Part shown: positions 19,224 to 62,600 of the stretch, piece after piece
Layout: each line of letters starts with the position of its first letter
Position numbering within the stretch: position 1 is the stretch's first letter
DNA from: Heliocybe sulcata
Lineage: Eukaryota > Basidiomycota > Agaricomycetes > Gloeophyllales > Gloeophyllaceae
DNA: 64,000 bases
Assembly: GCA_004369045.1 (NCBI GenBank)
Contig: ML213506.1
Span: 1,486,732-1,550,731 of the forward strand
Direction of reading: 5' to 3'
Notes under the pieces: generated by a model
What the model saw: only the letters and a program-made list of their open reading frames with translations
Database searches by the model: none
Told to the model about the DNA's origin: nothing
Made by a program: the position numbers and the translations under genes

Positions 19224-22087
19224 CTACGCAACGGTAGACACGGCCGCGCTGGCTGTGGTGATAGCAGTAGCAATAAAACTGTCCCAGGCAGCGACGGTGG
19301 CGCTGGCAGGGACATAAGACGACACAGTAGTGGCCGACCCGTAGTAAATCGCGTCACTAGCAGCCGACATAATGTCGTTGTCGAAGACGTGATCCTCGCC
19401 ACCGACGACAGTTACCGTTCCGTTGCCAGAGGACTCCACAAGACCCGTGGTGTTGGATCCTAGAACGAACTCTCGCAGGAACACATACGCCTAAGAATAG
19501 ATCAGTATAAGACAGAGTCCTGAGGAGCCGAGGGAAACATACCGTAGCAGGTTCATATTCCGGAACCTACAGAGCATCGTCAATAAAGGTGTCCCAAAAT
19601 GAATGGAAGCTGCCGCTCACCTCGTGACCAGCACCATTAAACAGAACATAGGTCAAGTTCCGTTCTTGGTGGACAATCCCAGCGAATTTACCAGTGTCGT
19701 CATACCAGGGAGTGTCAGGCTTGCGCGTGAAGCCTTGGATCCCGCCCCACGTTGTGTTCTACTCGCCACGCTGGTCACTAAAAAGCTTAGAGACGAGAGA
19801 GGATCCGCTCACCTGGATCGTCACTTCCGTACCGAGGTGAGCCACAAGCATGTCCGCGTTTCCAGAGTAGAAGATCATGGAGACGTTGTGCAGACTGGCA
19901 TTTGTGGCCAGCTCGGACAAGAATGCCATGGGCCTACGGTGACCGTCAGTAACGACAGCAGATAATCATGCTAATAAAAGTCATTACTCGACACCTGGCA
20001 GAAGAAGATCAACGTAAACTCATGTACTAAGGCGAAACTACACCACTCACTAGGGTCACCGAACTCGTTCACACCCCCGTCTGATCTCTTAAGTCCAAGT
20101 CTGACGCTCGCATAGGAAAAGTGGCGTACCTGGGAAGGTGTAGTCGTAAGTGCTGTTGAAGGGGTAGTTGATCTGCTCCGCCCAGTCCTGACTAGTAGGC
20201 GCGTGGACAGCAGCACGGGTACGATTATCTTTAAAAACGCGATAGTCAGATCATCAGCTGCTGATTCAATGGCCATACATACCATTGAAGAAGATAGTGG
20301 GATCCAGAGGCGCCTCGGGGTCAAGGGCATCCGGCACAAAGTAAACGTCAAAACCGTTAAAGTCGCCGCCCTCTGGACACCGGATAATGAGCTGATGTTT
20401 TACGTACCCAGTAGTCAGAGGGATGGAACTCACCCCAGGGAAAGCTGTAGTTCAAGGCATAGTCAATCACGAAGTCCAACAGGTCGCACCCATAGTACGG
20501 GTCGATCGTGCCATTAACCCGACCCGTCAGGTCGCGCTTCCACGCCATCTTGCGCTCTTCTCTAGTCTCCAGATCCCGCGCAGCGAGCAACTGACCCGCC
20601 TCCTGTTGCTGCTTCACCTTGGACACGAGCGTATTCTTGAATACCGACTTGCTGTAGCCGCCGCGGCTCCTCTCTGCAAAGGCCGAGGCATCCGCGATCG
20701 AGCCCCAATTCACGGGGATAGTAGGGAAGTGTGCGGTCTCTGGATACGTAAGGTTGAGATCGTAGCCACAGAGATGCGTCCTTGGAATAAGAATGAGGAC
20801 AATAGCCAGCATACACTATAGAATATGTCACTTACTGCGTCTTAAAGTACTCGTAGACCTCGGGATCGTAGCCGATGAGCTGCGGATATGTCTCAATGAC
20901 ACTCAGCTGCAGAGTTGCATATGCGTGAGGATAGCAGCACTCGAGACGGACTCGATTGGTAACCGACCATAGGTAACATCTCAAAGACGGAGAGCGCAGC
21001 CGTAGCACCATCGCCGATGGCGAACTTGGCAAGCTTCACGGGTGGATTGGGCGTGGAGAAAATCGCTTTCACGATGTATGGCTGAGCATTCCATTTAGTT
21101 AGGCGGCAAAGTGATTACGCATGCAGCAGGTACTGACGATGTAAGTTCCAGCATAACTTTCGCCAGTGAGGTAGAATGGCCGTTCGGCCAGACTTGGAAA
21201 GACTTTGACGAGGTTGGTCAAGAAACCGAGCTATAACACGTACTAAGCGATAGTGTCCAAGATGGAACGCAGTTACGTACGAAATCCTGTCCCATCTGGT
21301 CCTCGTCGGGAACTTCAATAGTGTTAGACGAGTGTGTGGGCCAAGCATATATGGTACGTACTATATCCCGTAGCGTCGGCGGTCGAGAATCCAGTGCCAA
21401 CTGGGGAGATGGATCATCAACAATGCTCGTCGATTAAGAGTTCATTATCATACCAGGTTGGTCAACCCAGAATGCGTCGGCGAGTTTATTCCAGCTGTAA
21501 TTGTTAGGCACGATGGAGTAAGTGTTCGTGATATGCAGCGGTCCGTTCTGTGAGGTTGTGTTAGGTGGCTAAAGCGACAATGATCAATGGGCAGGCAGCA
21601 CACCTCAGCGAAGAAACCCAAGAAACTCGAAGCTCCAGGTCTGATCGACACGGGATCAGTACACTATATACCACCGTGTCCAGGAGGCTGATCATACCCT
21701 CCGTTCAGCCAAATCAGCCAAGGTTCGTCGGACCGCTCTCCAGCTTCAGCGGCTAGAGAGCCCTCTTCCTTCTCGAACCCCCAGAAGAACAGGGTGTCAT
21801 TGGCATGTCCAGCACGGTTCACGCTGAGACTTCCGGCGTAGTTCCTGGGTAAGGGAACAGTGACATTCGGAAGAGGCTCGGTGACCTCGAAGTCTAGAGT
21901 GCGGCCGCAATGTCCACGTCGATATGGGATGTCGGAATAGAAGGTCATGGCGCTTACAATGTTGCCACTCTGGACCATAGCCAGTCGCTGGTATACCAGT
22001 GTAATTGTGCGGGTAGGTGCTTGGTGGAGTATCCTGGCTAACTGCCAGGGCAGCAAGACCTAACAAGACGGTCCCGAGTTCCAACAT
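19224..22087 (-). CDS. Secreted serine carboxypeptidase (peptidase family S10), many short introns
   Basis: Start ATG 22087 gives a signal peptide (MLELGTVLLGLAALAVSQD). Read across introns, the exons give DEPWLIWLNGG + PGASSFLGFFAE + NGPLHITNTYS, then FWVDQP + VGTGFSTADATGY + IPDEDQMGQDF + LGFLTNLVKVFPSLAERP, and FYLTGESYAGTYI with the catalytic serine in GESYAG. Downstream exons include the region NVSMIFYSGNADMLVAHLGTE, whose Asp suits the catalytic acid, and VLFNGAGHEV, which supplies the histidine. The C-terminal exon (19224-19484) is a Ser/Thr/Ala-rich tail ending VAAWDSFIATAITTASAAVS, possibly a GPI-attachment signal or linker. The enzyme should trim C-terminal residues from proteins outside the cell or in the vacuole. 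At least eight introns of about 45-60 nt are present, and not every border was fixed. Confidence 0.9.
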
Positions 22088-22573
22088 GTCTGCTGTTCAA
22101 TGAGGACACGGAACAATACTTCCACGCAGACGGCCTTCTTATATTTCAGAGATAATTCCATGCCGGCGGTAGAATCATCCTTGGGAGTCATCGCGAAGCG
22201 TTTGGGGTTAAAGTTAGACGGCATGCCATCTCGGAGGCGGAAATGATGGCTGATCTGTCGCGGTCTTCGCTCGACTACGGACGCAGCATTCGGAGCCTTT
22301 CTGGAGTATATGGGGATGGATTAATGGATGACTTTCCGTAACGGCTAATTCCTAAATTCATGTCTGTAAACAGGTTGTTATGGCCTTCGTCACAATCTGC
22401 GAGAAGCCAGTGACCGAGAAATACAGATTGGCGCTAAACCGTAACGTATCGTGCACGCCACGAGCGGGGAGAACATTTCAGATCCATTACAGGGATAATC
22501 GGGAGGATTCACGTGGCGGAAGGCGTAAGCGAGTGATACGCGTCTCTAAGCGACAATTTACAGACGCTCAAAA

Positions 22574-22605
22574 ATCTGTAGAGGGGTCCCGACCCCTCTA
22601 CAGAT
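22574..22605. repeat. Perfect 15-bp palindrome with 2-nt spacer
   Basis: Two 15-base arms (ATCTGTAGAGGGGTC and its reverse complement) flank a CC spacer. It lies in the left half of the outer MITE-like element, 5 bp before the KDZ target duplication. It could extrude as a cruciform or form an RNA hairpin. Confidence 0.85.
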
Positions 22606-22610
22606 CAAGG

Positions 22611-22618
22611 ATTTAGAG
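22611..22618. repeat. Left 8-bp target-site duplication (ATTTAGAG) of the KDZ element
   Basis: ATTTAGAG directly abuts the left terminal inverted repeat and is matched exactly at 29523-29530. Confidence 0.92.
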
Positions 22619-22765
22619 CACCTCAGGCAGGGCGAGATGCATGACGTCATAGACTGCCAGGCCGATTGTTGTGCTTGGTGGAATGGGCTTCTGAGGTAGC
22701 ATCTCCATAGATGTTCTCTATAGAATCCAATAATAGAGCTGCCCGCATTTGGACATGGTCCCGCC
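22619..22765 (+). repeat. Left terminal inverted repeat of the KDZ element
   Basis: These 147 bp begin CACCTCAGGCAGGGCGAGAT and match the reverse complement of 29376-29522 at 146 positions. The match stops sharply at both ends. The repeat contains a possible start codon and a GT-AG intron-like segment. Confidence 0.95.
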
Positions 22766-22774
22766 ACTCAAGCT

Positions 22775-23392
22775 TTGTTATATAATTCTAGCGCTAAGGC
22801 TAAGCGATCCGTATACAGTGCAGCATCATACAAGAAGACCCATGGGCCCAGCCAACATGCTCTGGCTGAGCAAATCATCGAACGGACAGCACTCTTTGAA
22901 GAAGCTCTGAAGGGCCCCGAATTCATCAATGAATCCGAACTACACCTATGGGATACCTTGCCTCCTTACCCAAGCACAGTGAATTCCACATCGGCAAGAG
23001 AACGGCGGTTCACAGAGAGCCTCATACAAGTCCAGCACGGTAGACGCCTGCGGCTTCTTAAAGGAGATATGACAAGGTGGAATGCAGAGATCATGGAGAC
23101 TGATCCCCGGGCCGCAGCATGGCAGAGGATAGCTGAGGCGATGACATCAGAATGGGCACGTTTGCAGGACGAGTTCAGTACCCTATCCACCTACCTGGAC
23201 AGCAGCGAACGTGAAGCGGATGAATGCGCTGAAAAGATGGCCGAGCATCTGAGGAGCTGGCATGCAAAGCGTATGGTATGTCTTCGAGACCTGATTGTGG
23301 CTCATAGGGAGGGGAAAAAGCACTACAAGAGTCTAATTGAGTCGCAAAGCATGCAATTTCAGAAACTAGACATGTACATTCATTCTAGATAG
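22775..23392 (+). CDS. Unknown KDZ passenger ORF (helical, coiled-coil-like), 5' end unresolved
   Basis: The open frame runs about 205 codons to TAG at 23390-23392 and begins at a TTG, so the true start is probably an upstream exon, perhaps inside the left TIR. The product is rich in charged residues and helix formers: QHALAEQIIERTALFEEAL, then WQRIAEAMTSEWARLQDEF, ending SLIESQSMQFQKLDMYIHSR. I recognise no domain. It converges with the Ulp1-like gene, with 12 bp between the two stops. The composition looks like a real protein rather than a shadow frame, and it does not overlap another coding exon. A cargo or accessory gene of the transposon is the simplest reading. Confidence 0.5.
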   Translation: MLYNSSAKAKRSVYSAASYKKTHGPSQHALAEQIIERTALFEEALKGPEFINESELHLWDTLPPYPSTVNSTSARERRFTESLIQVQHGRRLRLLKGDMTRWNAEIMETDPRAAAWQRIAEAMTSEWARLQDEFSTLSTYLDSSEREADECAEKMAEHLRSWHAKRMVCLRDLIVAHREGKKHYKSLIESQSMQFQKLDMYIHSR

Positions 23393-23404
23393 GCTATATA
23401 CATG

Positions 23405-24107
23405 TTACTTCAGTGCAAGAGTCAGAACTAAGTTCGATAAGTATCGCCGGAAAACAGGTACTTGATGCTCTTGCATACCAGTTGCATCATAACCCCGGAA
23501 GATGGCAGCCATACATGCCAAAATCCAAACGCCGCAATCGTAACTGTTGTGCTGTAATTGTGTGGACTACAGATGGTCATATACCATTATCAACCAGTAA
23601 AATACTAAAGTGCTCACCGAGATCGGATGACAAGTCCAGCCGTCCATTCGGAGATTCATAGAAGCGGCATTTGACAGCCGTCGTAACATCTCCATTATAT
23701 GCTGTATGTCGTGAGCATACTATTATAAACATCTGTTAACAGGTGCACATACCTCTGTATCATCTTGCCAGACATCTTGAGCTGCCAAACTATCGAAGTG
23801 GAAGATGTATTGGAAGGCGTGGTTAACGATGCCGAGCGTCCAGTGCCCTATACATCCTCGAGGACCTGGGCGGAAAATGGGGATAACCCAAATCCCTCTT
23901 TCCCAGTACCGATAGCGTCGAGTGTATTTCCATAGCTCTTCATCTGGCACCTGCTGCCGAACCAAGGAGAGGATCAATGTCGAAAAGACTGCAATATGAT
24001 TCCGTTCATCTTGAGGTACGAGATCCGTGAACAGAAGTGCTGCGCATCCGTTCACGCATTCGTCATTGAGTGGAGATCGGTCACCGCTGATATGGCCGAT
24101 CAGGGTT
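23405..24107 (-). CDS. Ulp1-like cysteine protease (C48 family) carried by the KDZ element, 5' end in or beyond assembly gap
   Basis: Exons on the minus strand read SPLNDECVNGCAALLFTDL, then GHWTLGIVNHAFQYIFHFD with the catalytic His (GHW) and Asp (HFDSLA). Next come TEHIMEMLRRLSNAASM after a GTATGT intron, and HNSYDCGVWILACMAAIFRG after a GTGAGC...ACAG intron, with the catalytic Cys in DCGVW. TAA is at 23405-23407. His, Asp and Cys occur in the order and spacing of Ulp1/SENP proteases, which remove SUMO or related modifiers. The exon at the 5' side begins near 24107 after an AG acceptor; further upstream exons would lie toward the N run or in the CpG-dense block. Such proteases commonly accompany KDZ transposases. 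Its role in transposition is inference. Confidence 0.82.
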
Positions 24108-24223
24108 CTGCGCTCCGAAAACGCGTTTTAGGGTTGTTTCATGATCGCGGCGACATTGCGACTCTATTGCACGTTCGCTCGCCGCTGACAGCTCCTTGGA
24201 AGGCGAGCGACGACTATACTGGC

Positions 24224-24883
24224 NNNNNNNNNNNNNNNNNNNNNNNNNNNNNNNNNNNNNNNNNNNNNNNNNNNNNNNNNNNNNNNNNNNNNNNNNNNNN
24301 NNNNNNNNNNNNNNNNNNNNNNNNNNNNNNNNNNNNNNNNNNNNNNNNNNNNNNNNNNNNNNNNNNNNNNNNNNNNNNNNNNNNNNNNNNNNNNNNNNNN
24401 NNNNNNNNNNNNNNNNNNNNNNNNNNNNNNNNNNNNNNNNNNNNNNNNNNNNNNNNNNNNNNNNNNNNNNNNNNNNNNNNNNNNNNNNNNNNNNNNNNNN
24501 NNNNNNNNNNNNNNNNNNNNNNNNNNNNNNNNNNNNNNNNNNNNNNNNNNNNNNNNNNNNNNNNNNNNNNNNNNNNNNNNNNNNNNNNNNNNNNNNNNNN
24601 NNNNNNNNNNNNNNNNNNNNNNNNNNNNNNNNNNNNNNNNNNNNNNNNNNNNNNNNNNNNNNNNNNNNNNNNNNNNNNNNNNNNNNNNNNNNNNNNNNNN
24701 NNNNNNNNNNNNNNNNNNNNNNNNNNNNNNNNNNNNNNNNNNNNNNNNNNNNNNNNNNNNNNNNNNNNNNNNNNNNNNNNNNNNNNNNNNNNNNNNNNNN
24801 NNNNNNNNNNNNNNNNNNNNNNNNNNNNNNNNNNNNNNNNNNNNNNNNNNNNNNNNNNNNNNNNNNNNNNNNNNNNNNNNNNN
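24224..24883. other. Assembly gap (660 N)
   Basis: This is a run of N inside the KDZ element. Apparent open frames crossing it are artefacts. Confidence 1.
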
Positions 24884-25600
24884 AGTAGTGTAGCGGCGAC
24901 GTTTGTACTTAAACCCTTTCTCTTTGTATCGAAAATGCAAGTTATCTTCACCCTTCATATCTCGTTCTCGGCGCAAGAGTTTCCTCCAGAGTATAAGGCT
25001 TTCGACGGTCTTCTGACTTCAACCAGAGTTTGCGCGAACCTTCCAACAGCGCGCGCGACAAGTGAGCTCTTTCGTTTCAAAGTTTTCTCTTAAGTCCGGC
25101 CTCGTGCGCCGCCCGTCTCGTTAACCGCGTTCGAGTTGTCTCGAGTTTTAGAAGCGTCGCACATCACACCAATGGCATTGTACGCGTGCCTCGATCGCAT
25201 TGTGTAGGCAATCCCGATCCCGCTCCCTCCGAGACCGTGCGACAAGCGCGCGCTCCGCGACAGCCCGAGAAGTTATCGCACCAAGAGCGCACCGGGTGCA
25301 TTAGAATCGCATCGTCAAGCAGAGTACGATACAAGCGTCTCCCGAAGTGTGCGTATCGAATTGAGACTGCTGCACGACCGCGACTGGTCTGCGCCAATCT
25401 ACCTTTTGCCCCACCTATACGTCTTACCCTACCCTATCCCTCCGAACGTCTATTATACCCTTCGTCGCCCCGGACCTCGCAGCCATCTAGCACCAAGGGA
25501 TTGGTGCTACGCTTTGTGGTTGTTGTTCCCCTTTAGGTCTGTGCGGGTTTCATCGCGTGTTAGTGCCTTTCACCACGCAGCTGAGAGATATCCTGTGGAG
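24884..25600. other. CpG-dense, unassigned segment next to the gap
   Basis: The sequence here has far more CG dinucleotides than the neighbouring KDZ exons (about 7-11 per 60 bases across 25081-25260, against about 4 in a sampled transposase line). The flank left of the gap from about 24100 is similar. No protein domain was recognised in either direction. It may be the promoter and first exon of the Ulp1-like gene, or a separate insertion hidden by the gap. Confidence 0.5.
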
Positions 25601-25715
25601 TAAAATCCAGGCGGGGAGAGGTGGCAATTGCGGGACAGAACCTCCCTTGGTTCAGGTACTTTGAATATGGAGGCGCATTGATGGTATCAACCCATCGATC
25701 CGTATGCATGTTATC

Positions 25716-28700
25716 CTATCGCAAAGATGCCGTGAGATACATCATGAAAAGAAGATAATTATGCACAAGTTGCTGCCAGATCATGCTTACTTCACAGCAG
25801 TTATGAGCGCCTAGTTCAGAATCTGGTGGCAGCCCATCATCATCATCGTCAGCACCGCCTGCAAGGATATCAGCCAGCAGAACGTGAGAAGGATCTTCAG
25901 CAACAGATGCCGGAATGTCCACATCTTCATCATTGTCCACGGCATCAGTGAGCACCTCTATTGCTGCCAGATCAGTGTCTGACAACTGGATCAATGGAGG
26001 CATCCAATGATATTGAGCGGTGGTGGACTGTCCCGAGAGACGGAGTGCCGTGTTGATGGAGGATGAGAGATGGTAGTCGAAGATTGTTGTCGACATCAGG
26101 GGGCTGGCCCAGCGCTGGCGCAAGAGACGAGTATCTTGCAACCGATGCTGGAGCTCAGAGACATATTCGACATCTGGAGGACATCGTCAGCATTGGCAAA
26201 CACATCAGATATACTGCAGCTTACTTTCGGGTAACCGTAGGGCAAGCTCAAGTGCTGCTAGCTCCCGCCCAAACCATCTGCCCAGGTTATCAGCCTCGAT
26301 GCCAAGACGACGCCGCTCCTCTCTGCACCGGTCAATCTTCAACATAGCTCGGATTCCAACGCGGACATTGCTGTCGTAGAGCCAGCGGGGAGGATCCACA
26401 TCGCAAGGTTCGATCCAGACATCCTGCAGTAGTATCGGGTCATCCTTTAGAGTACTCAGATCAGTAGACAGCTTTGATGGTACAGGGACGCGCCATTCCA
26501 GCTTGTGTAACTGTTGGAGAGCATCGCAGTACTTGTTAAATTTGCGTATAGCTCCCAGGAGGGCTGGACGCCGTTTGCTCATCGTCTTTCGGGTCTGCTG
26601 ATGTAGCTTAGTCCCTGTACAAAATCAGAATGATTGCACCACAGCAACAGAGATGTCATACCTAATGGATTGTCATGTCCACCAACAGCTTGATCGAGCC
26701 GGTCCCACTCCAAGAAACTCGCAATAGCTCGTTTGCGGATGTTCATCTTCAGATCACGCGCAAGGATAAGCAGCCGGACGAAATCGTAATTGACACCTTG
26801 CAGATGCGGAAAGGAGTCGGTAATGTTAAGAGAGGCATATAGGGCCTCCGCATGTGACATCAACTTGCTGTGTGTCGATATGAGCTGCTGTAGTATGACA
26901 AGAGATGTTTCGGGGGCTGCAGCTTTGGCAAGGTTCGTTTGGGCTGTGGATAAGGCCCGTTCCAAATCATCAATTTCAGCTTGTAGGGTGAGGACCACAT
27001 CAAGCTCTTTCTTCAACTGCGCCGGTGCATCTGGATGAATGATCGTGACTCAGTAACAATGATGATGGGGAGAGGGTCCACCACTCACGTGCCCGGATAG
27101 ATAGCTGTGCAGCACGCTGCATTTCCCACTGCCTACGGAGCTCCGGCAAGGGGATACCACACTCCTCTAAAGTCCTCTTAGCCTCTTCACCTTGCCTTTG
27201 GACTCCACGAGACAGCCGGCGCTTCAGAAAATCACCAAGGTCATCCCGCAGTTCATCTCCGATGGCTCCAGCCTGGCGGTCTAGGAGCCAGATCCTTCTG
27301 GAGCGCTATCATGTAGAGCACATCAGACGGACACCGTGCAGGGTACTGAATGAACTACTAACCACTGACGTTCGTGTGATAGGAATTAGTTTCCTCGACC
27401 TGGACCAGAAACGCTCTGTTCCTTCGCCATCCGTGAGCCCTAACCCTAGCGACATCCTCGGATTGTAGACAAGCTGACACGACCATTCATGTCCGTATGC
27501 GTGCATGGCAGATGTGGACCACGAGATGCGGCTGCTGATGTTGTCAGGGAGTAGATTGTACTATAGAATATCGAGTTACTCAGTGAAAATAGTCAAGCAG
27601 AATGGAGGGCAACGCACAAGCTCGATACTGCGCTCCACTACACATGCAACATCATACAAGACCCGGATAAGGGCTCTTGCAGGCAGATATGCAAAGAGAT
27701 GACTTATCAATGCGAGTGCATATTTCTGCTGCTCTCCGGGCGTATCAATATTCGCAAGGAAGATGGGAACATCGTGCCGGCATACGAGAGCCATCACTCC
27801 TGTATCATCGAAGATGTCTTTATTAGTTTTTGTCTTGTGCTCGTCAGCTGCATCATGACCACGTTCACACGAGTCAACAGCTTCATTAGGGACTTTAGGG
27901 ACATAACTCCGGCTGGGTGGTTTCTTCCTCTGAGCGTCAATGAGTGCGCCCATAGAGTCGACCTGCACCTTCGATATGAAGTACTCAGGTTCATAGAACC
28001 ACGGACTGTCACCAGCACTGCGGAGATGACGCTGGCTGAAGTTTCCGTCAACGGGGAGTTGTATATCGTAACCCCTGCAGGCTGCTATTCAGTCGAGTTG
28101 TGACGAGGATGACCATACCACAACTTACTCGTGTTCCGAACGTCCAAATGTCATGCCTGAAAAGCATGCCGGGCACCGCCTTTGCAGAAGACTAGCACAT
28201 TCTTCATAGGGACCTGCTCCGGGCGGGCGTAGTGATAGTTCATCATCCCGAACAGTACCCCTTGCATTATTGACGATTTCCTCAAGCTTACGGCTGACCT
28301 TTGTAGACAGGGCATCATACCATTGAATGGCATAACCCAGGCCCCTACGAAAGGGGTCACGAATAGGCTGGCCCTTGTCGTCGAGCATATGCCAGCCACG
28401 ACAAGCGTAAAAGTTCCGTAAAGCCCCTGCCAAAGCCGTCACAGCATCTCCGGAGCGCTCAAACAAGGCAAAATAGAAGTCGAGCAATGCAATGGATACC
28501 ACCATGCGTGGCTGCGAAGGGGATGTCGGAAAGAGGCCTGATGCAACCAGACATTCTGGTAGCGTAGTACAAGTGCAATATATGACCTTGCGTGACTCGA
28601 AATCTGAGTGAAGATGAATAAAGCATATATATCTAATATGTAGGTCACTTACGATCCCAGAATAGGCACAGAATACTTGCGGTATTTGTACTGCAGGAGG

Positions 28701-29163
28701 GGTCTTGACACTTGTGAGCATCCAGAAGTTCCTGTTCTATAGGTGTCCGGAAAACCGCCTTGCGGTACTGTCGGAGAGGGTGGATCAGCTTTGGCAGTAG
28801 GTCCTTCCAGCGATCGTACAGCCTGAAGGCCTCTTCGTCCGGCAGGATACGTCTGCGGGATGATGGATCGGGAGTTGCGTCGGGAAGTGGCTCAGTATCA
28901 ATCATCTCGAGATCGATGTCAAACCCTATATCAGGGGCCATCTCAACATCTGACTCATTGAGTGTAGGTACATCTTCGGTCGCCAGACTTTGCTCTTTCA
29001 GGGCATTGTCCAGGCGGTGCATGCGTGCCAGCAAAGCCTTCTCACGTTGATTGCGCCCGGGAATTTCATATTGTTCATGATGTCGCGAGGGTGCACGTCG
29101 GCGCTGAGGACTTGTAAAATGTGGGCCAGTAGTATGAATATATGGCTGGGCACTACGAGACAT
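25716..29163 (-). CDS. KDZ transposase with CxC1 cysteine cluster, spliced
   Basis: Start is ATG 29163 (MSRSAQPYIHTTGPHFTSPQ). Exon 1 has a charged N-terminus and the first half of the cysteine cluster (DAHKCQDPSCSTNTASILC). The next exon continues it (VIYCTCTTLPECLVASGLFP) and adds RMVVSIALLDFYFALFERSG, the CxC1 pattern. The catalytic-domain blocks follow: KVQVDSMGALIDAQRKK, MALVCRHDVPIFLANIDTPG, ALIRVLYDVACVVERSIEL, MHAYGHEWSCQLVYNPRMSL, LGLTDGEGTERFWSRSRKL and IWLLDRQAGAIGDELRDD. These are the usual KDZ landmarks. The C-terminal exons (27016-25716) are helical and end in an Asp-rich tail. The frames between introns appear open, but not every border was resolved. It should cut and rejoin the 147-bp ends of the element. 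Confidence 0.9.
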
Positions 29164-29375
29164 AGCGGGACATTTGATGGGACAAGAACCAAATGCACTA
29201 ACCTGCAGGGCGAAGCGCCCTGTGACTCATCTTGCAAACATCCGAACGGGATGATGGAAATATGTCGCTGAGGCGCGCAGGATGAATGGCAGAGGCCATG
29301 GCTGAGCGGAGCGAAGGCCATCCTGCGATGTGGTTGCGCAGGCGTCCCCGACAACAGCGGAGGAGCAGCCGATGC

Positions 29376-29522
29376 GGCGGGACCATGTCCAAATGCGGGC
29401 AGCTCTATTATTGGATTCTATAGAGAACATCTATGGAGATGCTACCTCAGAAGCCCATTCCACCACGCACAACAATCGGCCTGGCAGTCTATGACGTCAT
29501 GCATCTCGCCCTGCCTGAGGTG
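29376..29522 (-). repeat. Right terminal inverted repeat of the KDZ element
   Basis: This is the reverse-complement partner of 22619-22765, with a single mismatch (at 22675 versus its partner). It lies upstream of the transposase gene. Confidence 0.95.
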
Positions 29523-29530
29523 ATTTAGAG
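29523..29530. repeat. Right 8-bp target-site duplication (ATTTAGAG)
   Basis: This is an exact copy of 22611-22618, directly next to the right TIR. Confidence 0.92.
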
Positions 29531-29664
29531 ACGTGCTCTGCTTGACGACCTCCATCAAGAAAACGTTACTATGGCGAGCGTGACAATGCGGGATCTCCGA
29601 TTGATGCCATTTAGTGAGCGATTTAGAGAATACAGCACTGTAAATCGTTACGGAAAGTCATCCA

Positions 29665-30362
29665 ATGATTTGCGACTATGTAAGAGGACCCTACCGATGA
29701 ACGTAGCAGGAACAATTGACGTACTACGGCACCTCTAAAAATAGGTTGAAGCAACGTGAAATGCTCCGCTACACATGTGCTGGCATTGCTGCATATGGGG
29801 CAAGGGTCTGATTAGCCTTACCAGGAGATGCTTGATACCGTAAGGCAAGGCTACGAACTTGACATGCCCGATGCCCGGTGTCCGCCTACAAAGACATTCA
29901 AACTTCAAATAGGTGCTCCAGCACCTAGCATGTGATGAGTGAGGACTTGCTAGTCGAACCGAGCGCCGGAATGACTCTGGGGCCCCATGGCTTCACACGC
30001 AGATATCAGGTTACACACGCCTTGATATCTACTCTCTCGAAGTCCATCGGTACCGCAGCAGTCCGGAGAAGATGATGAGTCACTCAAGACGGATCTATGG
30101 ATGTGGACCTTGTGACAAGCAACATAGCGAGAACGAGATGAGACCGGCGCTATCAAGATGCTGCGCTCGCCAGCTGCCTTAAGTGAGCTAATGCAACGTA
30201 GTCGTTGGACCGTTGTAGCGCGCGGACAGGTCGGAGGGGCCTTCACCGTGCCCGTGCTTTCAACGATGAATCCTACGAATGCCGCCTGTCCAAAGCAAGC
30301 CATCAGTCTCTCAGACAAGTACGAAACTGGTGAAGTCATACCTAGAACAGCATCCCTAGCAA
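29665..30362. other. Intergenic, right of the nested elements
   Basis: This stretch of about 700 bp lies between the outer TIR element and the stop of the first WD40 gene. The minus-strand ORF at 29950-30378 has no recognisable features and partly overlaps the WD40 stop region, so it is not called. Nothing else was seen. Confidence 0.5.
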
Positions 30363-31715
30363 TCAAGTTAAATTCCATATGCGAACCGCCTGATCACCAT
30401 CCACGGAATAAACCCTCCCGCCATCGCCAGTTACCATAAGGTGCTCGACGCCATTTTGCCCGTAATTCGACTCTCCAGGAACAATTTCCCACTTGTAGTT
30501 CCGCTCGACGTCGTACACAACAGTGTGGCCCTTCCGAATGAATATCCTGCTGCCTTCCCATCGCACATTCTGAACTTCCATAAATGCCTGGCCATGCTCA
30601 GGCACTGCAAGCTGCCATCGCTGCAAGCAGTTGCCCGTCCTGACATCGAACACCCGCACCGTACCTCCCCGACCCCCAACAACGAGCTGGGTGCCCTCTG
30701 GGCTGAACCTCATGGTCCTGACCCAGCCTGCAAAGCCACCGAGGGAATGAACAAGCTCGGCAGTGCATGTTTCCCATATGCGCACATGCTTGTCTCCCGA
30801 ACCGGCAGCTATCAGTCGACCGTCAGGTGAGAAGCAGGCAGCCCAACTTTGAATGGTAGCTCCGGTGAGGACCTTCAAAAGAGACCCATCGATAGGATCC
30901 CACAAGCGAACGGTCTTGTCCCAAGATGATGTCGCAATGAATCTGCTGTCAGGGCTCTGACTCACCCACACAACAGCATCTTCATGTCCCACCATAGCAT
31001 AACGTTCCGTGTAGTGTCCCCGCAGGGTCTCGTGCACGTCAACCGCTACTACAGTCTTGCGACCAGGCTTGATGTAGAATAACAGCGATCCATCGTTGCT
31101 GAATGGGTAAGAGCCAAAACTGGCTACGTGCCCGCTATAGAGCCGTCCATGCCTCTCCTGCTGTGCGATCGCCGCGTTGACTAAGACGTTCGTGAATTGC
31201 TCGACGATGTTGGAATATCCGATGTCGTCAAACGACAGGTCTGGATGTTGCGATCCTAGAGCTGCAGCCGCACTCGCTGCGGCGCGGGCGGCGTCCTCTA
31301 TATCATGCAGAGGTAGTATGTCTTCAGGAACATCGTCTCCGAGACTGAGGAGAGTAACAGTATCTTTATCCCCTCTCGCCCCGAGAGGAGACATCTGTAT
31401 GACAACAACAGCGCCATCAGGGCTAAAATGCACTGCCGGCTGGTATGGAGCACGAAACGTCCGGATGAGAGAAAGAGATGCGGTATCGTAGATGCGGAAC
31501 TCCTTGGGAAGACAGACAGCCAGCTTGCTGCCGTCGCGAGTCAGAGCAACGGACTTGACTTCAGCCTGAAACTGCAGCTTGGCGTCCTCAGATCCCCAAG
31601 ACTGAGGCCCTCCTGCGGCCCACGTAGCTGATTGTCCGTCCAGCTGGAAATCGTGGTCGATCTTAAACTCGTATGCACCGAAGAACTCGGCGGAGGTCGT
31701 GGTCCTTCCAGGCAT
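30363..31715 (-). CDS. WD40-repeat protein, 450 aa, copy A of a tandem pair, intronless
   Basis: A single uninterrupted frame from ATG 31715 to TGA 30363 encodes 450 residues. The N-terminal box TTSAEFFGAYEFKIDHDF and AAGGPQSWGSEDAKLQF are shared with the neighbouring copy. WD-type blades are clear in the second half: GHEDAVVWVSQSPDSRFIAT + SSWDKTVRLWDP, SWAACFSPDGRLIAAGSGDK + HVRIWE, and TMRFSPEGTQLVVGGRGGTV + RVFD, ending AVRIWNLT. The N-terminal half also has beta-propeller-like repeats but is more divergent. A seven-bladed scaffold for protein interaction is expected. The specific role is unknown. Confidence 0.85.
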   Translation of the reverse strand: MPGRTTTSAEFFGAYEFKIDHDFQLDGQSATWAAGGPQSWGSEDAKLQFQAEVKSVALTRDGSKLAVCLPKEFRIYDTASLSLIRTFRAPYQPAVHFSPDGAVVVIQMSPLGARGDKDTVTLLSLGDDVPEDILPLHDIEDAARAAASAAAALGSQHPDLSFDDIGYSNIVEQFTNVLVNAAIAQQERHGRLYSGHVASFGSYPFSNDGSLLFYIKPGRKTVVAVDVHETLRGHYTERYAMVGHEDAVVWVSQSPDSRFIATSSWDKTVRLWDPIDGSLLKVLTGATIQSWAACFSPDGRLIAAGSGDKHVRIWETCTAELVHSLGGFAGWVRTMRFSPEGTQLVVGGRGGTVRVFDVRTGNCLQRWQLAVPEHGQAFMEVQNVRWEGSRIFIRKGHTVVYDVERNYKWEIVPGESNYGQNGVEHLMVTGDGGRVYSVDGDQAVRIWNLT

Positions 31716-32345
31716 GATGGACGTTCAAGCCTTCAAGGAGTCTTCGTTGATGTTGTCCAGAGAAACTTTCATACATTGAGAAACTTTCATACATTGAGTA
31801 TTGCTTGGAGTATGCTGCGCACAGAAGATGATGGAGTAGCGCCCTGAGGTTCCGTACTACGAAGTCTTGTTCCCGTGCGGCGATAATCAGACCGGCGCAG
31901 CTTACTATAATAGCTGCGTAGACGGTGAAGTTTCCGCCATATGTGGGTCCGACCTCTGCGAAAGGCGCCACAAAAACATGGAGAAAGCGCAGTATATCAC
32001 AGCAGATTTGCGGCATGCACAGCGGTCGTATGGCGGAGTGTTAGGTTCTCGGCAAAATCCGGCGCCTTCCCGATGGAATCTGACTCTGGCAGTCATTGCA
32101 GGAAGGAAAACCACAATACTTGCTGAACGTGCGGATGTTGATACTCCTAGCGGCCTATGCATCATATAAATACATTACGAAAATTCAGACGAACAGATCA
32201 GAGATCAATGACTCAATTCCCGACATACGCTTACGCGTGGAAGCTTCGCTATATGCACAGTGAATTTCAGTCGTTCTGGAGACGGCTGCTGCTAGATTGG
32301 TGCACTACGCCGTACGGTAAAGCCTCTGACAGATGTGTACAGCAA
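31716..32345. other. Intergenic between the WD40 pair, with an 18-bp tandem duplication
   Basis: This is the upstream region of WD40 copy A and the 3' flank of copy B. The 18-bp unit AGAAACTTTCATACATTG occurs twice in a row at 31761-31796. No gene was recognised. Confidence 0.55.
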
Positions 32346-33695
32346 TCAGTCCAACTCCCAGACCCGGACAGCTTGATCATGATCAGCGGAATAAACCACC
32401 TTGCCACCGAAACGCGCCAACGGCTGGCCATAGTGATTGTAGGGCCCCCTGCCGTTTGCTGGTTTTGGTGCCACAAGCTCCCATTTGCGATGGCGCTGGA
32501 CGTCGTAGACAACGGTGGATCCATCTGGAATCCGAATCAATATCCTGTCGCCGAGCCATCGCACGCCAGGGATCTCTAGGAACGCCCCTATGCCACGTCC
32601 GCCTGCAAGCTGCCAGAACTGCACGCTCTCACCCGACACGACCTCGAATACACGCACTGTGCCACCCTCAGCTCCAGTAACTAAGTGAGTTCCCTCAGGA
32701 TGGAACTGCATGGTCCTGATCCACCCTGTGAATCCACCGAGTTTGTGCAGGAGCTCCCCGGTTGCAGTCTTCCATATCCGCACATGCGTGTCTCCTGAGC
32801 CAGCAGCTATCAACTGGCTGTCCGGTGAGAAGCAGGCAGCCCAACTTTGACCGGTGGCTCCGGCCAGGACCCTGATATTCTTGCCGTCAAGGGGATTCCA
32901 TAGGCAGACGAACTTATCCCAAGCCGATGTGGCAAGGAGCTTTCCGTCCGGGCTCTGACCAACAAACATGACAGCATCTTCATGCCCCACAAGAGAAAAC
33001 GACTCCGTGTATCCTCGATGCAGAGTCTCCTGCACGTCAACCACTGCTACGGTCTTGCGGTCAGGCTTGATAGAGAACAAGAGCTTCCCGTCATTGCTGA
33101 AGGGATAGCAACCGAACCCGGGTATGTGCCCATCCCAACATTTGCCATGCTTTTCTTGCTGAATCAGCGATGCGTTGAGCAGAGCGTTGGTGAAGTGGTC
33201 GACGATATGCGCCGATTCAATGTCGCTATCGGACCAGCGCTGCGAGAGCACTGCAGATGCCGCAGCGGCTCCCGACTGGGCCGCCTCTTTGATAGTGAGC
33301 AGCGAGAATGCGTCTTCCGACGTGCCGTCTTTGAGGCGTATAAGAGTCACGAATTGCTTGTAGCGTCGATCCTCGACGAAGGACATCTGCATGGCTACGA
33401 TCTCACCGTCGGGGCTGAAAGAGACGTTCGGGGGATGCGGACATTGAACTGTCTGCAGGAGTGAGAGAGATGTGGTATCGTAGACGCGGAACTCCTTGGG
33501 GAGACAGACGGCGAGCTTGCTCCCGTCCTGAGTCATCGCGATGGAGTTCACGTCTGCGTCCAAGGACAACTTGGCTTTCTCCGAGCCCCATGACTGGGGT
33601 CCGCCTGCTGCCCAGCTAGGCTGCTCTCCGTCTTTCTCGAAGTCGTGCTCGAGTTTGAATTCGTACGCGTTGAAGAAGTCGGCAGAGCTGAGCAT
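32346..33695 (-). CDS. WD40-repeat protein, 449 aa, copy B of a tandem pair, intronless
   Basis: The frame is a clear paralogue of the neighbour at 30363-31715. They share the N-terminal box (SSADFFNAYEFKLEHDF; AAGGPQSWGSEKAKL), LAVCLPKEFRVYDTTSLSLL, VGHEDAVMFVGQSPDGKLLA, SWAACFSPDSQLIAAGSGDT + HVRIWK, and a final AVRVWELD. Two ATGs are possible. The one at 33740 would add MCVSFPLPEDHKPPT. I chose 33695 because it aligns with the neighbour's start and because a TATA-like box at 33756-33762 leaves only about 16 bp before 33740. The two genes are in the same orientation and clearly arose by tandem duplication, now well diverged. Function unknown. Confidence 0.83.
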   Translation of the reverse strand: MLSSADFFNAYEFKLEHDFEKDGEQPSWAAGGPQSWGSEKAKLSLDADVNSIAMTQDGSKLAVCLPKEFRVYDTTSLSLLQTVQCPHPPNVSFSPDGEIVAMQMSFVEDRRYKQFVTLIRLKDGTSEDAFSLLTIKEAAQSGAAAASAVLSQRWSDSDIESAHIVDHFTNALLNASLIQQEKHGKCWDGHIPGFGCYPFSNDGKLLFSIKPDRKTVAVVDVQETLHRGYTESFSLVGHEDAVMFVGQSPDGKLLATSAWDKFVCLWNPLDGKNIRVLAGATGQSWAACFSPDSQLIAAGSGDTHVRIWKTATGELLHKLGGFTGWIRTMQFHPEGTHLVTGAEGGTVRVFEVVSGESVQFWQLAGGRGIGAFLEIPGVRWLGDRILIRIPDGSTVVYDVQRHRKWELVAPKPANGRGPYNHYGQPLARFGGKVVYSADHDQAVRVWELD

Positions 33696-33755
33696 TGTCG
33701 GTGGTTTATGATCTTCGGGAAGAGGGAAAGAAACACACATCGGATTTACGAGCGC

Positions 33756-33762
33756 CTTTATA
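33756..33762 (-). promoter_or_regulatory. TATA box of WD40 copy B
   Basis: The site reads TATAAAG on the minus strand, about 61-67 bp upstream of the preferred ATG at 33695. It supports the shorter protein. Confidence 0.5.
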
Positions 33763-34119
33763 GGGCGGCATCTGCATCATAGATGTGGGTCATATGTGGT
33801 CCATGATAATCACTGCGGAAGAAGTCATGCAAGTAACTGTATGTTCCATAAGCGCTCGTCCAAAGCTGCGTCGACGACTAGATCTAGAAGTACGGGATAT
33901 CAGCAGGTGCCCCGCCGGATCTCCCACCACGTCCTCGGCAGTAGACATCATGACGAGAACTAAGGCAGAGATGACTGGAACAGACCATTATTGAGTAGAG
34001 CATAGTGTGTGGGAGCCGCTTCAGCCTTCGAGGTATGACTGTGTATTCGGACTCACGGCGAACTCCGGCCCCTTCCCGATACAATCTGCCGTCCCGCTTC
34101 ATTTGACCGCACCGCTCTG
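33763..34119. promoter_or_regulatory. Divergent promoter region between WD40 copy B and MSY1
   Basis: The two genes point away from each other across about 400 bp. Apart from the TATA box of copy B, no specific site was recognised. Confidence 0.4.
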
Positions 34120-60499: not shown

Positions 60500-62600
60500 C
60501 ACCGCCTGCTAGATCAAGTATCACTCTCCTCCGAGAGGAAGGGGAGGAACTCACCTTGCAACGGAATAGTATCGCTCGAAGACGACTGATTTCGCGACTG
60601 AGAATGACGACTCACTTACCAAACGAGAAACTAAGAAGAGCAGTCAGCTGGAAGACCTAGAATATCGTCCGCATGTCAGACAGGGGTCCACTCTCCGAAA
60701 CCGGAGGCTCACTTACTTTTCATAAAACCGCGGAGTGCCGCGAATAGGAGGCAAAGAATAACCAGAGATCGACCCATTGCTATACCAGATGTCCACCCTT
60801 CGCCGAAGAAGAGACGGATTACTAACTTTTGTATCACGAGAACCACCTGTCAACCGGAGAGATCGGCCTCTTGCTAGACCAGACCACTGCTGCGAGGAGA
60901 GAGTTGCTGAGATGATGAAGAACGAGAGAAGCCGCACTAACCTTCGTACACCACCAACAATGAGCCCAGGGATGACCAGACAAACCGGCCGCTTGCTAGA
61001 CCAGGCTGCACTCCTCGAAGAGGAGAGAGATCACTCACCTTGTACCGCGGGAACCGCTGTTAGTGAGTCTAGCGTAACCAGCGAGATCGACCGCTTGCCC
61101 CACTACACCAAAGAGGAGAGAATGACCAGATATCGACCGCTCGCCGGACCAGGCCACCCTCCTCCGAAGAGGAGAGGGACCACTCACCTTCTACCACAGG
61201 AACCGCGACAGTAAGCCCAGCGTAACCAGAGCGATCGACCGCTTGCTAGACCAGACCGCACTCCTCAGAGGAGAGGCTGTTGAGACTATAAGGAAAATCG
61301 CCAGGAGCATGAAAAGAATGACCAGGGAGGTCGACCGCTTGCTAGACCAGGCCACGCTCTTCCTCCGAGGAGAGGGTTGCTGAGAGCCGCCAGTAGCAAG
61401 ACCGAGGATATCCAGAAAGGTCGACCGCTTCCTAGACCAGGCCACGCTCCTCTGAAGAGGAGAGAGTTGCNNNNNNNNNNNNNNNNNNNNNNNNNNNNNN
61501 NNNNNNNNNNNNNNNNNNNNNNNNNNNNNNNNNNNNNNNNNNNNNNNNNNNNNNNNNNNNNNNNNNNNNNNNNNNNNNNNNNNNNNNNNNNNNNNNNNNN
61601 NNNNNNNNNNNNNNNNNNNNNNNNNNNNNNNNNNNNNNNNNNNNNNNNNNNNNNNNNNNNNNNNNNNNNNNNNNNNNNNNNNNNNNNNNNNNNNNNNNNN
61701 NNNNNNNNNNNNNNNNNNNNNNNNNNNNNNNNNNNNNNNNNNNNNNNNNNNNNNNNNNNNNNNNNNNNNNNNNNNNNNNNNNNNNNNNNNNNNNNNNNNN
61801 NNNNNNNNNNNNNNNNNNNNNNNNNNNNNNNNNNNNNNNNNNNNNNNNNNNNNNNNNNNNNNNNNNNNNNNNNNNNNNNNNNNNNNNNNNNNNNNNNNNN
61901 NNNNNNNNNNNNNNNNNNNNNNNNNNNNNNNNNNNNNNNNNNNNNNNNNNNNNNNNNNNNNNNNNNNNNNNNNNNNNNNNNNNNNNNNNNNNNNNNNNNN
62001 NNNNNNNNNNNNNNNNNNNNNNNNNNNNNNNNNNNNNNNNNNNNNNNNNNNNNNNNNNNNNNNNNNNNNNNNNNNNNNNNNNNNNNNNNNNNNNNNNNNN
62101 NNNNNNNNNNNNNNNNNNNNNNNNNNNNNNNNNNNNNNNNNNNNNNNNNNNNNNNNNNNNNNNNNNNNNNNNNNNNNNNNNNNNNNNNNNNNNNNNNNNN
62201 NNNNNNNNNNNNNNNNNNNNNNNNNNNNNNNNNNNNNNNNNNNNNNNNNNNNNNNNNNNNNNNNNNNNNNNNNNNNNNNNNNNNNNNCTCCGAAGAGGAG
62301 AGGGTTGCTGAGAGTCGCCAGTAGTAAGAATAACCAGAGAGGTCGACCGCTTGCTGGACCAGGCCGCACTCCTCCGAAGAGGGGAGGGTTGCCGAGAGTT
62401 GCCAGTAGAAAGACAAAGAATAGCCAGACAGATCGACCGCTTGCTGGACCAGGCCACACTCCTCCGAAGAGGAGAGGGTTGCTGAGAGTCGCCAGTAGTA
62501 ACCAGAGAGATCGACCGCTTGATAGACCAGGCCACACTCCTCGGAAGAGGAGAGGGTTGCTGACAGTCGCCAGCAGAGAGATGGAGGACAGCCAGGGAGA
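60500..62600. repeat. Minisatellite array of about 80-bp units with a conserved hairpin, interrupted by an assembly gap (61471-62287)
   Basis: Units right of the gap start at 62288, 62372, 62462 and 62540, so steps are 84, 90 and 78 bp, all multiples of three. Each unit has CGACCGCTTGCTGGACCAGG or a close variant, then a palindromic CTCCTCCGAAGAGGAG and GGGTTGCTGAGAGTCGCCAG. Left of the gap the units grow more divergent towards 60500. On the minus strand the palindrome gives CUCCUC-UUCG-GAGGAG in the best units. Several frames on both strands stay open across short runs, so coding cannot be decided. The N run is very likely a collapsed part of the same array. Confidence 0.85.
61471..62287. 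other. Assembly gap (817 N) inside the repeat array
   Basis: This is a run of N. Open frames drawn across it carry no meaning. Confidence 1.

Follow-up and report, generated by a model that had tools for sequence, protein, structure and literature searches.

The locus described here lies in a 64,000-nucleotide window of the Heliocybe sulcata assembly GCA_004369045.1 (contig ML213506.1) and raises the question of whether two near-identical inverted repeats around a KDZ-type transposase gene delimit a complete transposon that arrived by transposition, moved recently and may still be mobile, as an original prediction made from the sequence had proposed. The element is very probably a DNA transposon of the cut-and-paste kind, belonging to the CxC1 type of the KDZ superfamily, inserted into a small repeat that resembles a miniature inverted-repeat transposable element (MITE) and generating an 8-bp target site duplication (TSD). 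Its borders are textbook-like and the insertion is genuine, but the copy is damaged and of a known kind. The contig is labelled C4 below (the window being C4:1486732-1550731), and genome-wide counts refer to the 31.6-Mb assembly of 51 contigs. The borders are as follows.

22611 to 22618, no strand: left TSD, ATTTAGAG
22619 to 22765, plus strand: left terminal inverted repeat (TIR), 147 bp
29376 to 29522, minus strand: right TIR, 147 bp, one mismatch to the left TIR
29523 to 29530, no strand: right TSD, ATTTAGAG

The TIRs begin with CACCTCAGGCAGGGC and are identical at 146 of 147 bases, with the exact 8-bp TSD directly outside both of them, in agreement with the repeats and duplication originally described. 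Inward similarity between the TIRs ends at base 147; a repeat comparison that returned 165 nt at 95% identity comprised the TIR together with 18 bases per side of TSD and flank. The sequence ATTTAGAG occurs a third time at 29621, but this copy lies about 90 bp beyond the element and marks no border. From TIR to TIR, TSDs excluded, the element measures 6,904 bp, 660 of which are N (gap at 24224 to 24883), and its termini are CA..TG. It combines several features of the KDZ superfamily, namely a KDZ domain, an upstream CxC-type cysteine cluster, an 8-bp TSD and TIRs.

The surrounding sequence identifies the target.

22320 to 29669, no strand: target, a MITE-like repeat measuring 438 bp once the KDZ element is removed; its 24-nt inverted ends (22320 to 22343 and 29646 to 29669) are 92% complementary

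This repeat is possibly itself flanked by a 3-bp AAT duplication. An empty copy of its middle part is found on contig C10, and relatives of its ends are found on C11. On C10, the left flank of the element (22433 to 22586) has a 92% identical counterpart; similarity to the right flank begins there at the TSD and covers 48 bases (96% identity) and, beyond a gap, 28 more. When the two flanks were joined over one TSD, 196 of 230 aligned positions agreed with C10, which carries a single ATTTAGAG at the junction; 20 of the 24 gap columns in this alignment represent a missing palindrome arm near the border. An empty site, which the original prediction had suggested looking for in sister strains, is present here as a paralog in the same genome and, together with the TSDs, bears out an insertion by transposition.

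The same prediction had proposed searching the assembly with the element's end, a unique end counting against mobility and further copies with different duplications counting in its favor. A search with 190 bases of the left border, including the TSD, matched 20 places, comprising the element's own two ends and 18 others; the end is not unique, though the 18 others were only 74 to 85% identical. A 21-base end motif, CACCTCAGGCAGGGCNAGATG, was exact at the same 20 places and occurred once more with three mismatches, whereas the backward pattern used as a control found three places with up to three mismatches. Fourteen of the 20 ends pair to form seven elements; of the six single ends, four run into N stretches and two (on C25 and C38) do not. 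All seven two-ended copies start with CACCTCAGGCAG and end with CTGCCTGAGGTG, and each is flanked by a perfect TSD of its own.

Window element: TSD ATTTAGAG
C9:1004868-1008462: TSD GACTCTCT
C12:44337-46690: TSD CCCTAGTA
C4:1678415-1680027: TSD ATAAAAAC
C4:1016003-1017649: TSD GTCAGTTC
C12:941729-943355: TSD GGAAATAC
C9:841946-856872 (ends L019 and L020): TSD GTTTTGCA

The seven duplications all differ, and a ninth base is shared in none of the copies. Because a perfect 8-mer occurs at a fixed offset in seven of seven copies and an 8-mer match occurs in 0 of 7,616 other offset pairs drawn from the same flanks, the TSDs are not due to chance. The last copy in the list, referred to below as the C9 relative, is 14.9 kb long. 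Some 8 kb of additional sequence separates its left TIR from the first open reading frame (ORF1) that it shares with the window element; this extra sequence includes a 2-kb gap and ORFs of 527 and 325 amino acids, neither with a Pfam match. A search of the genome with the KDZ profile gave 21 rows, grouped as eleven places that include the window and the C9 relative. Seven of the nine other KDZ stretches aligned in tblastn with the KDZ domain of the window element at 24 to 29% amino acid identity (L037 and L038 gave no alignment). No end of the present family lies within 20 kb of any of the nine, which therefore appear to belong to different families.

Members of the family have moved recently within this genome. 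Copies L018 and L021 are identical at 768 of 769 and 95 of 95 bases inside their borders and at 26 to 28 of 100 outside, and for L010 and L012 the figures are 543 of 543 bases inside the borders and 33 of 100 beyond them. L010 (C10:512910) and L012 (C2:35096) are single ends whose 543 identical bases reach long N stretches, and longer copies may lie in those gaps. Since these pairs belong to sister TIR subfamilies (75 to 80% identical to the window TIR), recent movement is established for the family and not for the window copy. The original argument for recent movement, from the near-identity of the two TIRs, does not hold for a cut-and-paste element, whose TIRs travel together, and TIR identity was discarded as a dating method.

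The predicted CxC1/KDZ transposase lies on the minus strand.

25573 to 29163, minus strand: KDZ transposase gene, from the ATG to a nested insert (models of 1,036 to 1,051 codons with eight GT-AG introns)
28129 to 28603, minus strand: CxC1 exon
About 27354 to 28067, minus strand: KDZ domain
25573 to 25715, minus strand: start of the Ulp1 domain, exon before the nested insert

Both Pfam profiles exceed their cut-offs, in agreement with the transposase originally named. The KDZ profile (PF18758) scores 173.7 bits on a 1,046-amino-acid spliced model (cut-off, 26.6), covering positions 2 to 213 of 217, and CxC1 scores 31.1 bits on the exon ORF and 28.1 bits on the spliced model (cut-off, 26.9). 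The CxC2 profile remained below its cut-off on this transposase. Candidate catalytic Asp, Asp and Glu residues of a DDE-type enzyme occur in VDGNF, YDVAC and DGEGTERFW. Introns were searched in hand-chosen regions, and 268 combinations passed filters that required two junctions suggested by alignment with the C9 relative, three of them giving 1,036, 1,037 and 1,051 codons; confidence is lowest for the third and sixth introns, and several borders are not unique. The openness of the model is therefore weaker evidence than the conservation in the C9 relative of every exon, including further exons besides those for CxC1 and KDZ. A search for a TET/JBP dioxygenase found no place above the cut-off genome-wide and three weak rows on other contigs, the N gap in the element being unreadable. 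The transposase would pair the two 147-bp TIRs, excise the element and join it to a staggered 8-bp target, where gap filling would produce the duplication; the CxC1 zinc cluster probably aids DNA recognition.

Beyond the nested insert, coding sequence resumes on the same strand.

23405 to 24087, minus strand: apparent 3' transposase exons, Ulp1/SENP-like (C48) protease, stop codon at 23405 to 23407

The exons past the insert hold the motifs GHWTLGIV, FHFDSL and QHNSYDCG (the last at 23531 to 23554), which we take to contain the usual His, Asp, Gln and Cys of Ulp1 peptidases; these residues are seen in both the window copy and the C9 relative. On a conceptual splice of the C9 counterpart, which is uninterrupted at that place, PF02902 scores 28.4 bits (cut-off, 20.7). 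Sequence searches of the PDB were weak for both copies, with a best E value of 0.73 for the window exon (6gzu, a conserved membrane protein) and 0.15 for the C9 splice (SENP8 2bkq, along with 6gzu, an unrelated-looking membrane protein). A frame is open from the ATG at 29163 through the last intron (25790 to 25716, GTAAGC..TAG) into the Ulp1 exon, and the Ulp1 exons thus appear to form the 3' end of the transposase gene, making one predicted KDZ-Ulp1 gene. The second of the two further ORFs that had been noted between the TIRs, an Ulp1/C48 exon within 23723 to 24087 on the minus strand, does exist but looks like this 3' part of the transposase. An Ulp1/SENP-like domain could strip SUMO from the transposase or from host factors.

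The other of those ORFs is a separate reading frame.

22724 to 23392, plus strand: ORF1, 222 amino acids from stop to stop, no Pfam match above the cut-off

ORF1 converges on the transposase gene, and 12 bases lie between its end and the stop codon of that gene. Its only other copy in the genome is in the C9 relative (58% amino acid identity); likewise, ORF1, the Ulp1 exon, the CxC1 exon and exon G match only these two elements at an E value of 0.001. ORF1 is a second, convergent ORF that belongs to the element, and its role is a candidate for specialist study. Because no in-frame Met precedes codon 116, whereas in the C9 relative the 294-codon frame has Met codons before the conserved part, the window copy of ORF1 may have a broken 5' end or may start in another exon.

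All three frames are under purifying selection, as judged from codon alignments of the window element with the C9 relative. The transposase exons gave a dN (nonsynonymous divergence) of 0.153, a dS (synonymous divergence) of 1.485 and an approximate dN/dS of 0.10 over 987 codons, and the corresponding ratios were 0.13 for the Ulp1 exon (106 codons) and 0.22 for ORF1 (200 codons). Shifted frames, used as a control on four of ten pieces, gave 1.05 to 3.7. The aligned C9 codons contained no stop; the window pieces lack stops by construction. Function seems to have been retained in both lineages for a long time after their separation. It is conceivable, and is proposed here tentatively, that they represent a KDZ lineage in which transposase and SUMO protease form one selected protein with control of host SUMOylation built in, accompanied by a conserved ORF1 found in this genome only in these elements.

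The window copy is damaged by the following insert.

24088 to 25572, no strand: nested TG..CA insert, long terminal repeat (LTR)-like, 1,485 bp including the 660 N (24224 to 24883), splitting the Ulp1-coding exon
24084 to 24087 (CCGC) and 25573 to 25576 (CCAC), no strand: 4-bp duplication of the nested insert, one mismatch

Neither this insert nor the N gap figured in the original description. The insert belongs to a family with 42 rows at 82 to 100% identity in at least 40 places (82 to 97% outside the window), 40 of 158 candidates having been scored, and in size and ends it resembles a solo LTR. The C9 relative carries a related 1,498-bp insert, 91 to 92% alike and with GCGG on both sides, in a different transposase exon, so that both readable long copies are interrupted; the N stretches into which four single ends run could conceal longer ones. 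Observed/expected CpG ratios of 0.77 to 0.79 in the KDZ parts, 0.94 in the window and 1.41 in the nested insert are suggestive of an older KDZ element and a younger insert but were not used as proof. The element can be called complete at its ends but not in its genes, given the split Ulp1 exon and an ORF1 without an in-frame ATG before codon 116. Since the insert cuts the Ulp1 exon, the window copy could do no more than encode a truncated transposase or be mobilized by another copy's enzyme, and it is probably incapable of moving on its own; the proposal that it may still be mobile is tenable only for movement in trans or with a dispensable Ulp1 part.

These data bear on three other explanations of the locus. 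An origin of the inverted repeats as part of a larger segmental duplication, or as a chance pair, is almost certainly wrong: nothing was found in its favor, identity ends at the TSD and does not extend beyond the borders, C10 has the flanks joined without the element, and the flanks of the two near-identical copy pairs are unrelated. The limits of the TIRs, the empty site and the TSD control together rule it out. A second reading, in which the protease is a separate gene adjoining the transposase and not its C terminus, is doubtful; an in-frame Met (DNMHTDRW) opens the exon at 25573 to 25715 and would permit an independent start, but the frame stays open from the upstream ATG and the C9 copy has the same order of parts. 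Somewhat unlikely, too, is that the element is a nonautonomous passenger, an inactivated copy that was carried here, or is movable now, only by the transposase of another copy. The interrupted Ulp1 exon would fit such a passenger, as would the fact that the sole close relative found is also broken, in a different place, by the same insert family. The recent movement of 1.6-kb copies implies that mobilization in trans probably occurs in the family, and movement in trans has been proposed for broken giant KDZ and EnSpm elements of Ectocarpus (PMC12477816). Against this explanation, the stop-free C9 codons make the break look late, although the nested insertion may have come before or after the KDZ insertion at this site.

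The preferred reading, a KDZ transposon that reached this site by transposition and whose transposase gene apparently runs into an Ulp1 domain, also has several points against it. The empty site on C10 is a paralog within the same genome and not an allele. No other copy has ends more than 85% alike, so the window subfamily is single-copy and mobility of this element after its insertion is unsupported. The CxC1 match is barely above its cut-off, and the single Ulp1 exons score below that of PF02902 (15.5 bits in the window and 16.3 bits in the C9 relative, against 20.7). The predicted KDZ-Ulp1 fusion is based on an open frame and on consensus splice sites that were searched for, the Ulp1 exon carries an insert with a 660-N gap, and the dN/dS values are approximate with dS, at about 1.5, near saturation.

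Some features of the window lie outside the element. Near its left border, a minus-strand frame at 21664 to 22059 resembles part of a serine carboxypeptidase gene (PF00450 at 18.0 bits, under its 21.9-bit cut-off), and the insertion may sit upstream of this serine carboxypeptidase-like gene. To the right, two adjoining and similar minus-strand ORFs, at 30363 to 31724 (453 amino acids) and 32346 to 33776 (476 amino acids), are apparently a tandem duplication and are presumably WD40-like. An 817-N gap at 61471 to 62287 adjoins a 90-bp tandem repeat of 3.5 copies (62288 to 62579) that is open in several frames.

One fungal genome offers a well-bounded KDZ family with a single TIR definition, two long, anciently diverged gene-bearing copies, recently moved short copies and an exact empty site. 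The apparent KDZ-Ulp1 gene is the most interesting part and, together with ORF1, merits a specialist's second look. A literature search for a KDZ-Ulp1 fusion found no paper containing both, which is weak evidence of absence, and priority is not claimed.

The statement that complete KDZ copies are rarely annotated is outdated, as PMC8290104 and PMC12810828 describe ends and moving elements; the TIR motif of KDZ and Plavaka elements has been characterized in Marasmius oreades (PMC8290104), and CxC2 occurs with intact KDZ elements in Pleurotus (PMC7641404). Iyer 2014 and Böhne 2012 are cited by PMC12062965. The giant KDZ and EnSpm elements of the brown alga Ectocarpus contain nested insertions, often have broken transposase genes and are proposed to move in trans (PMC12477816). 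Zisupton and Dileera elements have a KDZ transposase and 8-bp TSDs, with TIRs stated for Zisupton, and some carry a TET/JBP dioxygenase (PMC12730594); the window element resembles them in transposase and TSD by description only and is assigned to neither clade. Kyakuja elements share with it the KDZ transposase and the CA..TG termini, but two Kyakuja families have 7-bp TSDs and no TIRs (PMC12730594), and membership was rejected given the 8-bp TSD and 147-bp TIRs found here. A close counterpart is found in Cryptococcus KDZ1 to KDZ3, CxC1-plus-KDZ elements that moved into a reporter gene and have TIRs of 241, 139 and 169 bp, with TSDs of 8 bp in KDZ1 and 4 to 8 bp in KDZ2 and KDZ3 (PMC12810828). 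The window element has the same type of transposase, TIRs of 147 bp and the 8-bp TSD of KDZ1; unlike it, the Cryptococcus elements are about 9.2 to 11 kb long and moved in the laboratory, and no word beginning with "Ulp" occurs in the main text of that paper. Ginger1 elements have an Ulp1 domain C-terminal to the transposase, Mutator elements with an Ulp1 domain are also described, and a role in transposition has been discussed (PMC2836005). The window element is like both in being a DNA transposon that encodes a predicted Ulp1-type protease, although the transposase families differ, and a KDZ gene apparently running into Ulp1, as in Ginger1, would make SUMO removal during transposition testable in this superfamily.

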